A DNA stretch of 5,376 nucleotides from Thermoproteota archaeon (GTDB lineage: Archaea; Korarchaeota; Korarchaeia; B14-G2), in NCBI GenBank assembly GCA_003661385.1, contig QMWA01000125.1, positions 1 through 5,376 on the forward strand, in the 5' to 3' direction. The translations under genes were made by a program, and so were the position numbers. Of this stretch, positions 345-4,229 are shown piece by piece; within the stretch, counting starts at the first letter, position 1, and each line of letters starts with the position of its first letter. Below the pieces are notes generated by a model. That model was not told the origin of the DNA. It saw only the letters and a list, made by a program, of their open reading frames with translations, and did not search any database.

Positions 345-348
345 GGTG
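345..348 (+). promoter_or_regulatory. GGTG ribosome binding site that decides the DUF3467 start
   Basis: GGTG is followed by a 6-nt spacer and TTG at 355. The GTG inside this motif (346) is in frame and could be mistaken for the start codon, but it is better read as part of the ribosome binding site. Confidence 0.45.
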
Positions 349-354
349 CCAGGC

Positions 355-678
355 TTGAGCCGGAGAGCTAGGGTAAGAGTCAGGACATCTGAGGGCTTCA
401 GGCAGTACTACGTGTCTGGCTCGATGATAGGGCACTCGCCGACGGAGTTCAGGATCCTCTTCTTCAGGGACTCTACTGAGATATCTGAGGGCTCTATAGA
501 GGCATTGTCGCAGCCTTCTGTGCTCAGGGAGGTGCTGTTCGAGGTTGTGATGTCTCCTGTGCAGGCTAAGCTGCTGGCTGAGCAGCTGTCAAGAAACGTG
601 GAGCAGTATGAGAGGGTGTTCGGGAAGATACCTGCCCCTGGAGGCGAGAGGAGGCCTCCTGAGGCGATGTACACGTAG
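355..678 (+). CDS. DUF3467 family protein
   Basis: This encodes 107 residues from TTG 355; GTG 346 would add three. It matches the small DUF3467 family of archaea and bacteria. Near the N-terminus is a strand with a YYVSG motif (residues ~18-22), then HSPTEFRILF (~27-36), then MSPVQAKLLAEQL (~66-78), leading into the family's C-terminal helix ending in EQYERVFGKIP. Length and motif order fit the whole domain, so the gene looks intact; only the last ~14 residues are a divergent tail. No biochemical role is established for the family, and no catalytic residues or membrane segments are visible. The TTG start gives an N-terminus (SRRARVRVRTSEGF) that begins directly with the first family strand. 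The gene is transcribed from the shared element at 314-324. Its stop codon overlaps the 3' end of a candidate guide RNA on the other strand. Confidence 0.85.
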   Translation: MSRRARVRVRTSEGFRQYYVSGSMIGHSPTEFRILFFRDSTEISEGSIEALSQPSVLREVLFEVVMSPVQAKLLAEQLSRNVEQYERVFGKIPAPGGERRPPEAMYT

Positions 679-739
679 CTCAGGCTGTGAAGCTCACTTC
701 ATTGGGGGCCCTCAGGCGAGCGTCGTGTCATCACAGCTA
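676..739 (-). ncRNA. Candidate C/D box guide sRNA
   Basis: Read on the minus strand, this stretch has the order and spacing of an archaeal C/D box sRNA. A perfect C box GTGATGA lies at 734-728, followed by a 12-nt guide (727-716, CACGACGCTCGC), a D' box CTGA at 715-712, a 9-nt linker, a degenerate C' box ATGAAGT at 702-696, a second 12-nt guide (695-684, GAGCTTCACAGC) and a D box CTGA at 683-680. A 4-bp terminal stem (TAGC 739-736 with GCTA 679-676) closes it. Such RNAs assemble with L7Ae, Nop5 and fibrillarin and direct 2'-O-methylation of the nucleotide paired to the fifth guide position before D or D'. By that rule the target sites would be the fifth base of GCGAGCGTCGTG and of GCTGTGAAGCTC; the target RNAs are not in this window. 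A TATA-like element at 761-769 fits a 5' end near 739. Against it, the C' box matches at only 5 of 7 positions, and GCTGTGA in the C box region can pair with TCACAGC in the second guide. Confidence 0.55.
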
Positions 740-760: not shown

Positions 761-769
761 AGTTAAACC
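761..769 (-). promoter_or_regulatory. TATA-like element for the candidate sRNA
   Basis: On the minus strand the sequence reads CCTAAGG then TTTAACTT, a possible BRE plus TATA box. Its centre (~765) lies about 26 bp from position 739, the predicted 5' end of the sRNA. This explains an AT-rich patch that sits too close to the Toprim gene to serve its GTG or TTG start. Read in the plus direction it could only support initiation near 791, for the internal ATG at 802. Confidence 0.45.
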
Positions 770-773
770 TTAG

Positions 774-777
774 GGTG
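774..777 (+). promoter_or_regulatory. GGTG ribosome binding site before the Toprim TTG start
   Basis: GGTG, a 6-nt spacer, then TTG at 784: the same geometry as at 345-355 and 2179-2189. The in-frame GTG at 775 lies inside this motif. Confidence 0.4.
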
Positions 778-783
778 CCTTGG

Positions 784-1206
784 TTGCCTAGAGGCAAGCC
801 CATGGAGCTAGCTGAGTGGACTAGGGCCCTAGCTGAGGAGTCCAGCATGGGCGCTGTGATAGTGGTGGAGGGCAGGAGAGACGAGGAGGCCCTGAGAGCC
901 CTTGGAGTTGAAGGGGACTTCGAGTATGCTTCCCGACTGCTGGCCCTGCTCAGGTGCACACCCAGCTACGCCAGTGGGAGGGAGTTCATCATACTCACTG
1001 ACCTGGATAGCGAGGGTGAGAAGCTAGCCATGGCGCTTAAGAGGGAGATAGAGCAGTCAGGTGGGAGAGCTGAGACTAGGCTAAGAGGAGAGTACATGAG
1101 GATCCCTGGGAGGCCTCCCAGGATAGAGGAGCTGGCCTCAGCTGTGCTCAACGAGAAGGAGGCTAGGAGAGCCAGGTGGAAAGCTAGGCAGGCGCATAAG
1201 CACTAA
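784..1206 (+). CDS. Small archaeal Toprim-domain protein (UPF0292-like)
   Basis: This encodes 140 residues from TTG 784. GTG 775 and ATG 802 (preceded by GAGG at 791-794) are in-frame alternatives. A single Toprim fold fills most of the protein. The first strand ends in the conserved glutamate, AVIVVEGRRDEEALRALGV (Glu ~29), and the second carries the acidic pair in IILTDLDSEG (Asp ~73 and ~75), the DxD of the family. Toprim domains bind Mg2+ through these residues in primases, topoisomerases, RNase M5 and OLD/RecR proteins. All three acidic positions are kept, so the site looks active. There is no helicase, zinc-finger or other domain, which matches the short stand-alone archaeal group named UPF0292. 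The substrate is unknown; an RNase M5-like role on the adjacent 5S rRNA is tempting but unproven. The basic C-terminal tail (RRARWKARQAHKH) may contact nucleic acid. The stop codon abuts the 5S promoter. Confidence 0.85.
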   Translation: MPRGKPMELAEWTRALAEESSMGAVIVVEGRRDEEALRALGVEGDFEYASRLLALLRCTPSYASGREFIILTDLDSEGEKLAMALKREIEQSGGRAETRLRGEYMRIPGRPPRIEELASAVLNEKEARRARWKARQAHKH

Positions 1207-1236: not shown

Positions 1237-1366
1237 GGGGGTTAGCGGTCAGAGCGCCGGGGAAACGCCCGGACTCATGCCGAACCCGGAAGCTAAGCCC
1301 GGTGGCGTCCCGTGTTGTACTGTGCTCCGAGAGGGCACGGGAAGCACGGGAGACTGCTAACCCCCC
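1237..1366 (+). rRNA. rrf: 5S ribosomal RNA
   Basis: The gene is about 130 nt long and lies outside any visible 16S/23S operon, as is usual in crenarchaea. The ends are set by a 14-bp terminal helix: GGGGGTTAGCGGTC at 1237-1250 pairs with GACTGCTAACCCCC (1352-1365, one G-U pair). Inside are the conserved 5S elements: the loop A/helix II start CAGAGCG, the CCGAACCCGGAAG stretch of loop C, TAAGCCC, and the GC-rich helix IV/V arm around CACGGGA. A strong TATA box at 1208-1215 is positioned to start transcription at the first G. There is no T-rich run after the gene, so termination at this point is not evident; the 3' end is probably made by processing. The dtdA start codon follows 17 nt after the end. 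Confidence 0.95.
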
Positions 1367-2202: not shown

Positions 2203-2530
2203 AGTCAGGTCTGATAGCAGCAAGCTCATAGCCTTCTTCGACTCCTCGATACCAAGGCACATGTTCTTCTCAGTGAACAGGAGGCTCAAGATGATAGGCT
2301 ACAGGGGCGTGTGGGCTCCCGCCTCGCCTGTAGGTGGAGCTGCTGGCTTGGATGAGGCTGCAGAGTACTGCTCTAAGAGAGGCATACCTGTGATAGTCAC
2401 TATGAGGAGGAGGGCTATGGGCTTAAGAGAGCTCCACGGGGTGAAGGTCATATACTTGGACAAGAGGGCTAGGAGGTCTACCAACAAGGTGATAGCGAGG
2501 ATATTCGAGGTGCTGAGGCATGAGAGCTGA
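2189..2530 (+). CDS. Uncharacterised small alpha/beta protein, possibly a degenerate PIN/Mut7-C-like fold
   Basis: This encodes 113 residues from TTG 2189; GTG 2180 would add three. I do not recognise a named family. The pattern is alternating strand and helix: a hydrophobic strand ending in Asp (LIAFFD, Asp ~18), SSIPRH, a basic helix leading to LKMIGYRGV (~33-41), a helix EAAEYCSKRG, strand IPVIVTM (~66-72), then VKVIYLD (~85-91) and a C-terminal basic helix. That order resembles Mut7-C/DUF5615-type PIN-like proteins (strand-Asp, LRxLGYD, helix, ILTRD). However, the second acidic position is replaced by arginines (TMRRRAM), so nuclease activity is doubtful even if the fold is right. It is basic, with many Arg/Lys, which would suit RNA or DNA binding. 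It overlaps dtdA upstream by 14 nt and the secreted-protein gene downstream by 11 nt, implying co-translation. No signal peptide or membrane helix is visible. Confidence 0.8.
   Translation: MKLGEVRSDSSKLIAFFDSSIPRHMFFSVNRRLKMIGYRGVWAPASPVGGAAGLDEAAEYCSKRGIPVIVTMRRRAMGLRELHGVKVIYLDKRARRSTNKVIARIFEVLRHES
2507..2512 (+). promoter_or_regulatory. Ribosome binding site of the secreted-protein gene
   Basis: GAGGTG lies 7 nt before the ATG at 2520, inside the end of the preceding gene. It supports this ATG as the true start and coupled translation within the block. Confidence 0.7.
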
Positions 2531-4229
2531 GGTCCTCGCTGCAGTCCTCCTGCTGGCCTCAGCTAGCCAGGGCAGCAGCCTGCTGGGGAGGGTTGAGGCC
2601 TCCTGTGTCCTGATAGAGAGGATGTCCTACTTCAGCAGCTGCTGCTCCCCTTACTGGCATGCTAAGGCAGTGGTGTTGAACTCTAGTGGAGAGTACCCTC
2701 TTGAGCCTGGTGAGGTCATTCAGCTCATAGTGTACGCTGGGGGCTCACCTCAGGACCCAGGCACACTCTGCAGGGTATCAGGCCTCCTCTACCAGCGGAG
2801 GGGGGAGCTCAAGCTCGTTGTGACCGGTGCTGAAGGCTTCTTCAAGCCATATGGCCCAGCTGGAGAGCCCAAGATAGGCCTCTCGGTTTCAAGGAGGCAG
2901 GTTGGCGTTGGCGAGAGCGTCAGCGTCGAGTTCTCAGTTGAGGAAGCTCCAGCTCAGCTCGCCTTGACAGTCTACTACCCAAGTGGAGAGAGCAGGGTGC
3001 TTGCTGAGGAGTGGGCTACACCAGGCCACAGGAGGCAGCTCGAGCTCCAGCTCACTGACCCAGGCTCATACACCCTGGCTTTAGCCGCCAGGAGCGCCAC
3101 CGGAAGGGTATATGTGACCTCTGAGGTGGTGTATGCTGCTGAGGAGGCTGGAGCAGCTAGCCTGCTGGTCACTGTTTTGGACTCAGAGTCAGGCAGCCTG
3201 GTGGATGGAGCTCTAGTCTACTTGAATGGCTCTCTCATAGGCAGGACAGCTGGGGGCGTGGTCGAGGTCAAGGAGCTAAGCGAGGGCGTAGCTGAGGTCT
3301 CTGTCTCGAAGGCAGGCTACTTAGACTCTGCTCTGCAGGTCAAGCTAGAGGAGGGGGCCAACGAGGTGACTATAGCCCTTAAGAGAGCTCCCCTGGAGGC
3401 CCATCTGGTAATCGAGGCTGAGAGCCCTGAGGTCAGTGCTGGAGAGGAGTTCAAGTTCAGGGTCAGGATTGAAGTCAGCAGAGAGGCGTCTGTGCACCTC
3501 ACCATCTTCAGCTCACCAGGGCTATCGATCAGGGGCATGGAGATGCCCCTGAGCGTCGAGAGGGTGGAGGAAGTCGCGCTGAGGGCTAGAGGAGCTAGAG
3601 CTGGGGTGTGGGCTATCAGAGCTGCAGCCAGGGTTTCAGCTGGATCAGCAGCCACATACATCGAGAACTACACCGTGGTTAGGGTTGTGAAGGCCGAGGA
3701 AGCTGAGCCTACAGCGTGCCTCACAGCTAAGTCGATCAGGGTGCAGGTCAGGGGCAGGGATGCGCTTGCCTCGCTGTCGGCCACAGCTTCAGCGGGAGCT
3801 GACGCATCTAGGGCTGCTGACGAGGCCTTCAAGGATCTCAGGCTCGTCTTCAGGCTGCATGAGCTAGTGGCTGTCGAGTCGCATGCCCAGAGGGCTGACG
3901 GGGCGCTTGAGGTCGTCTGCACTGGTGTGCTGAAGCCTATGAGGGAGGAGGGCGGCGTGTTCACTGTTGTGCTCACAGACTTAGCTGAAGTCGGTGTGCT
4001 TCAGGTCATCTTCGAGCTCCCCAGGAACCTGAGCTTGCTGAAGGCCCCAAGGGGCTCTAGGGTAGTCGAGTTCAACGAGACTACTGTGGTCTATGTTGCT
4101 GCTAGCGACGTAGCTGAGCTCCAGTACGCGGTCAAGGCGAGAGAAGGGGGCAGAAGCGTGAGCTTGCTGCCTGTAGCTGCTGTGGTGGCTGTCGCACTAG
4201 CTGCCTTAGCTGCTAGGAGGCTTCTCTAG
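2520..4229 (+). CDS. Secreted, C-terminally anchored multi-domain beta-sandwich protein with a PEGA-like domain
   Basis: This encodes 569 residues. The N-terminus is a probable signal peptide (hydrophobic VLAAVLLLASA, ~5-16; cleavage near 16-20), and the C-terminus is one hydrophobic segment (~548-565) followed by ARRLL, a tail anchor placing the bulk outside the cell. After a Cys-containing N-terminal domain (Cys 29, 41, 42, 84; ~20-110) come an Ig-like beta region (~117-207), a PEGA/carboxypeptidase-regulatory-like domain (~213-290, with GALVYLNGSLIG and a KAGY turn), a second Ig/CARDB-like region (~293-392) and an unassigned beta-rich domain (~395-540, Cys 400 and 467). Five N-glycosylation sequons (Asn 54, 236, 383, 503, 519) fit a glycosylated archaeal surface protein. 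No protease or other catalytic motif is visible, so a structural, S-layer-associated or binding role is inferred. It overlaps the upstream gene by 11 nt and the convergent GTPase gene by 17 nt. Confidence 0.85.
   Translation: MRAEVLAAVLLLASASQGSSLLGRVEASCVLIERMSYFSSCCSPYWHAKAVVLNSSGEYPLEPGEVIQLIVYAGGSPQDPGTLCRVSGLLYQRRGELKLVVTGAEGFFKPYGPAGEPKIGLSVSRRQVGVGESVSVEFSVEEAPAQLALTVYYPSGESRVLAEEWATPGHRRQLELQLTDPGSYTLALAARSATGRVYVTSEVVYAAEEAGAASLLVTVLDSESGSLVDGALVYLNGSLIGRTAGGVVEVKELSEGVAEVSVSKAGYLDSALQVKLEEGANEVTIALKRAPLEAHLVIEAESPEVSAGEEFKFRVRIEVSREASVHLTIFSSPGLSIRGMEMPLSVERVEEVALRARGARAGVWAIRAAARVSAGSAATYIENYTVVRVVKAEEAEPTACLTAKSIRVQVRGRDALASLSATASAGADASRAADEAFKDLRLVFRLHELVAVESHAQRADGALEVVCTGVLKPMREEGGVFTVVLTDLAEVGVLQVIFELPRNLSLLKAPRGSRVVEFNETTVVYVAASDVAELQYAVKAREGGRSVSLLPVAAVVAVALAALAARRLL

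Follow-up and report, generated by a model that had tools for sequence, protein, structure and literature searches.

Results

A C/D box sRNA candidate between two protein genes

In the window, which is the whole stretch of 5,376 nt analysed here, a DUF3467 gene (346-678, plus strand) is followed by a Toprim gene (775-1206, plus strand), and the 96-nt gap between the two holds an element on the minus strand. Direct reading of the sequence places the full sRNA candidate, terminal stem included, at 676-739; it overlaps a gene only with the last three bases of the stem, which fall on the DUF3467 stop codon (676-678, plus strand), the remainder being intergenic. From 739 down to 676, the minus strand reads TAGC-T-GTGATGA-CACGACGCTCGC-CTGA-GGGCCCCCA-ATGAAGT-GAGCTTCACAGC-CTGA-GCTA. 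This order opens with the 5' arm of the terminal stem, TAGC (736-739), and a single unpaired T (735), after which come the C box GTGATGA with 7/7 consensus positions (728-734), the 12-nt D' guide (716-727), an exact D' box CTGA (712-715), a 9-nt k-loop spacer (703-711), a degenerate C' box ATGAAGT with 5/7 consensus positions (696-702), the 12-nt D guide (684-695), the D box CTGA (680-683) and the 3' arm GCTA (676-679). A sequence-only reading had earlier described the four boxes, the 12-nt guides and the 4-bp stem, and this description is correct letter for letter.

Several sequence features by which archaeal C/D sRNAs are recognised are present in the candidate. A C box of the form RUGAUGA and a D box CUGA lie near the two ends and are closed by a short stem, TAGC/GCTA, of 4 bp with one unpaired T. 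The internal D'/C' pair is judged able to form a k-loop despite the 5/7 C' box, which retains the U-G-A of the sheared pairs and a sixth-position G able to pair with the C of the D' box. Archaeal C/D sRNAs have guides of 10-12 nt and a length of 50-70 nt (PMC7994747), and the candidate has guides of 12 and 12 nt and a total of 64 nt with the stem. The double 12-nt spacing had been taken as a strong coincidence; since 10-12 nt is usual in archaea (PMC7994747), it is instead what should be expected.

Elsewhere in the window, a 5S rRNA gene (1241-1362, plus strand; Rfam 91.5 bits) lies between the Toprim gene and a D-aminoacyl-tRNA deacylase gene, separate from the contig of the 23S gene. Positions 2520-4229 of the plus strand encode a protein of 569 aa, probably a membrane-anchored surface protein, which contains a PEGA domain and is hydrophobic at its C-terminal end.

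Statistical excess of the pattern and sister elements

The host genome is a 1.74 Mb MAG in 206 contigs. The loose pattern RTGATGA-N9-14-CTGA-N20-36-CTGA matches it 7 times, against 0 for the reversed pattern and 2.35 expected per genome by an order-3 Markov model. When a C' box (RTGANGN) is also required, 5 matches are left in the real genome and none is found in 20 genomes simulated with the same order of model. The absence of the full architecture from all simulated genomes, with 5 occurrences in the real one, argues that the candidate at 676-739 is not a product of chance.

The other four elements with pattern and C' box are located at C7:20042-20095, C20:4469-4516, C53:6564-6612 and C132:4337-4385 (contig and positions, listed without strand), and all have guides of 11-12 nt. 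Rfam models of archaeal C/D RNAs match 4/4 of them with E-values from 1e-5 to 0.02, under the gathering cut-offs. Guides of the C7 and C53 elements form 10 and 11 consecutive Watson-Crick pairs with the 23S rRNA of the genome itself, so that this 23S gene, on contig C20, can be argued to belong to the host genome; their D guides pair at positions 2080 and 1840 of it (E. coli ~1938 and ~1672). Altogether, guides from three of the five elements match the own 23S over 10-11 consecutive Watson-Crick pairs.

On contig C20, the 23S gene is followed on its own strand, after ~30 nt, by an RNase P RNA gene, and the C/D sRNA of that contig comes ~570 nt later (in the coordinates of stretch L078, the 23S gene ends at 620, with RNase P RNA at 651-935 and the C/D sRNA at 1501-1548), which is an unusual grouping of stable RNA genes. 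A second genomic copy of GCTTCACAGACTGA occurs at G000:C85 ~2107-2168 (L018:1486-1547) and would likewise be directed at 23S U2068. It is preceded by a C-like GCGATGA, 8 nt separate it from an ATGATGA downstream, and a clear D box was not found on reading the locus, so that this copy is perhaps a degenerate or chance element.

Predicted target of the D guide

The own 23S gene occupies C20:539-3588. In this 23S, the D guide and CTGTGAAGCTT form a duplex of 10 consecutive Watson-Crick pairs plus one G-U, in which U2209 takes position +5. In published work, a target is accepted when an unbroken run of 9 or more Watson-Crick pairs covers +5 (PMC4644070), and the D guide reaches this level. Among 1499 control 12-mers, which are other 12-mers preceding CTGA drawn from about 40 loci of the same genome, at least 10 pairs are attained by 1.3%. 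By alignment with the E. coli 23S gene, which was anchored on GACGGAAAGACC and is two bases longer than the standard numbering, U2209 corresponds to E. coli U2068, which is situated in helix 74. Judging from this complementarity, the equivalent of U2068 is the probable target of the D guide. The methylated base had been expected at the fifth guide position, and both 23S targets were found with a base exactly there; neither is a perfect 12-mer, the base adjoining the D box being unpaired.

Predicted target of the D' guide

For the D' guide, the own 23S offers TCAGAGCGTCGCG, where 8 consecutive pairs place G2719 (E. coli 2590, helix 93) at +5 and an A.C mismatch lies beyond. Such an 8-bp match is equalled by 21% of the controls and is not significant alone. 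In two genomes of the same phylum (G026 and G028), the sequence at the homologous site is TCAGAGCGTCGTG, with which the D' guide pairs over 10 bp, and the combination of at least 8 in the own 23S with at least 10 in G026 or G028 is found for 0.7% of control 12-mers. Measured against the level of at least 9 Watson-Crick pairs for a second guide, the match is thus below it in the own 23S (8 bp) and above it at the site of the two related genomes (10 bp). The +5 base is G in the host, G026 and G028, A in other members of the class and C in most remaining archaea; opposite to it the guide has C, matching G. Base 2604 covaries with 2590 as G-C, A-U and C-G, which is expected for a base pair of helix 93.

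The same site is already known from predictions in other archaea. E. coli 2590 equals position 2864 in the alignment of Dennis et al. through an offset of 274, which is obtained at 2552 and 2606; the number printed there for 2552 is U2526, which we take as a misprint of U2826, used elsewhere for that site, and the neighbouring C2556 = C2830 yields the same offset (PMC4644070). Methylation at C2864 has been predicted in Pyrobaculum, with sR30 as the guide, and in Ignicoccus, with sR124/127 (PMC4644070). With a weak match in the own 23S, supported by the same-phylum sites and by the predicted position, the D' target is likely yet less certain than the D target, and the complementarity moderately favours the equivalent of E. 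coli 2590.

Search for other targets and for homologues

The earlier reading had pointed to rRNA or tRNA, and the rRNA part was borne out by the 23S sites, while no match of at least 8 bp for the guides was present within the 28 tRNA loci found in the genome. Exact 12-mer targets, GCTGTGAAGCTC and GCGAGCGTCGTG, do occur in the genome, and none of the places read lies within a tRNA; the actual 23S targets are 10-11-bp matches without the base next to the D box. As a target, 5S rRNA was rejected with at least 4 mismatches. The MAG has no 16S gene, and in the 16S of three relatives neither guide has a match of at least 9 bp, so that a 16S target for the D' guide is excluded by proxy only. Several tRNA matches span 97-113 nt (C2:18279-18376, C2:18416-18513, C25:7475-7587 and C170:2010-2120), which suggests intron-containing tRNA genes.

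A search for homologues covered relatives of which the nearest belong to another family than the host genome. DNA similarity to the gap in 60 relatives was limited to a single 26-bp match, in G024; it reads CCTGAGGGCCCCGAATGAAG but the other boxes are absent, and it is therefore ascribed to chance. GCTTCACAGNCTGA has 9 matches in 8 of 150 genomes, a number near chance, and within the class it occurs in this genome only. A scan of 84,980 species found no orthologous guide; it gave 31 hits, which look like chance because nearly all are bacterial. In none of 23 relatives of the class is Toprim preceded by DUF3467, and no such element lies in the 500 nt upstream of the relatives' Toprim genes.

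Covariance models, which had been proposed as a check, score the candidate weakly. It reaches 13.5 bits with Rfam sR14 (RF01145), against a gathering cut-off of 38 bits; the sister elements are matched, under the cut-offs, as given above. A leave-one-out model of the four sisters gives the candidate 6.2 bits (E 0.085) and the top place in the window; with four training sequences, this profile has mostly learned their guides.

Upstream signal

A TATA-like element, GGTTTAACT (761-769, minus strand), is situated ~26 nt upstream of the 5' end of the sRNA candidate. Its placement for a 5' end at ~739 had been stated correctly; the signal itself, with an A/T content of 7/8, is equalled at 11% of random positions and is unremarkable by itself. 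An A/T-rich element within -45 to -20 before the C box accompanies 4/5 of the C/D elements in the genome. Since both flanking genes run on the opposite strand, the sRNA would need a promoter of its own, and it is probably transcribed from this TATA-type one, as far as the sequence tells.

Discussion

Interpretation of the element

The boxes and their spacing, the statistical excess, the complementarity of the guides and the sister elements are direct observations, and in their light the element at 676-739 is very probably a real C/D box sRNA gene. It is best explained, with high confidence, as a double-guide archaeal C/D box sRNA gene on the minus strand that would direct methylation of two bases in 23S rRNA. 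The original reading as an archaeal C/D guide sRNA has gained support in that 23S targets were located for both guides (10 pairs and one G-U for D; 8 own and 10 same-phylum pairs for D').

From these observations we infer transcription, protein binding, methylation and a role in folding as follows. The ~64-nt RNA would form a k-turn from C/D and a k-loop from C'/D', in which an A in place of U at the fifth position of the C' box would replace a U-U pair by A-U according to k-turn rules (PMC7994747). L7Ae, Nop5 and fibrillarin would assemble on it, and fibrillarin would be directed, for 2'-O-methylation, to the 23S base that faces nucleotide 5 of the guide, the D guide leading to U2209 (E. coli U2068, helix 74) and the D' guide to G2719 (E. 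coli 2590, helix 93). As both these helices emerge from the peptidyl transferase ring, a single RNA may keep two distant strands together during folding and might serve as a folding clamp besides a methylation guide, a role which has been proposed for other double guides (PMC4644070). We put forward tentatively that this korarchaeal RNA pairs at once with helices 74 and 93 and thereby, besides guiding methylation, clamps the catalytic centre during folding, with a D' guide that fits the same-phylum site better than the own 23S. If this is true, the D' guide has been caught drifting behind its target.

Alternative explanations

It may be asked whether the candidate is a real C/D sRNA that works through its D guide alone, the D' guide being an orphan, decaying or aimed elsewhere, such as at the missing 16S or an unassembled tRNA. 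The degenerate C' box favours this, as do the own-23S match of 8 bp, which stops at the A.C mismatch and stays under 9 bp, and the lack of a clear rRNA target for one third of the archaeal C/D sRNAs known (PMC4644070). However, the D' guide reaches 10 bp at the homologous same-phylum site, the +5 base is G only where the guide carries C, the site coincides with a predicted archaeal methylation site, and neither the 28 tRNA loci (at least 8 bp) nor the three relatives' 16S (at least 9 bp) offers another partner. We therefore regard a single productive guide as rather unlikely.

That the boxes are accidental in an intergenic gap where nothing is transcribed is highly improbable. The loose pattern is indeed expected ~2.4 times per genome, at least 2 of its 7 matches (C32 and C137) look accidental, and no conserved counterpart of the candidate was found among the relatives compared; against this stand the full architecture, seen in 0/20 simulated genomes, the 23S partners of both guides, at 1.3% and 0.7% in controls, and the stem and the upstream TATA-like element in their correct positions. 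The position just upstream of the Toprim start and touching the DUF3467 stop codon might also hint at a regulatory element of the Toprim mRNA on the plus strand or an RNA antisense to the 3' end of DUF3467, with the C/D look incidental. Such a reading is scarcely tenable, as it is the minus strand that carries the consensus boxes and the two 12-nt guides for which rRNA partners were located, and the relatives' Toprim genes lack such an element within 500 nt upstream.

Relation to known C/D guide RNAs

A double-guide C/D box sRNA, the reading preferred here, is a known kind of archaeal gene, and what is new is a member from a poorly studied lineage. The candidate resembles the double guides sR30 of Pyrobaculum calidifontis and sR124/sR127 of Ignicoccus hospitalis in box order, spacing, k-turn/k-loop compatibility, length and N+5 geometry, and its D' target is homologous to their 23S C2864 (PMC4644070). 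It differs from them in that its guides are fitted to the 23S of its own lineage, that the partner target is U2068, and that it is a predicted gene. With Rfam snoPyro_CD (RF00095) and sR14, sR28 and sR35 it has the general C/D architecture in common, and its scores with the sR families are far under the gathering cut-offs, as should be expected because these families are defined by their guide sequences. Like the bridging guides sR15 and sR17 of N. equitans (PMC4644070), it would address targets that are far apart in sequence, here by 510 nt, and supposedly near in the folded rRNA; unlike theirs, its targets surround the peptidyl transferase ring in domain V of 23S, and chaperoning is hypothetical.

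C/D guide RNAs are absent from most archaeal annotations. A review gives candidates from Euryarchaeota, Crenarchaeota and Nanoarchaeota only (PMC3608112), and Korarchaeota and guide RNAs are seldom mentioned together in the literature searched. The present finding leaves the understanding of the C/D guide system unchanged. With the set of five elements and their rRNA targets, guided methylation of rRNA would be extended to the host lineage; one target of the set is also predicted to be modified in Thermoproteota, and the set gives predictions at the level of single bases.
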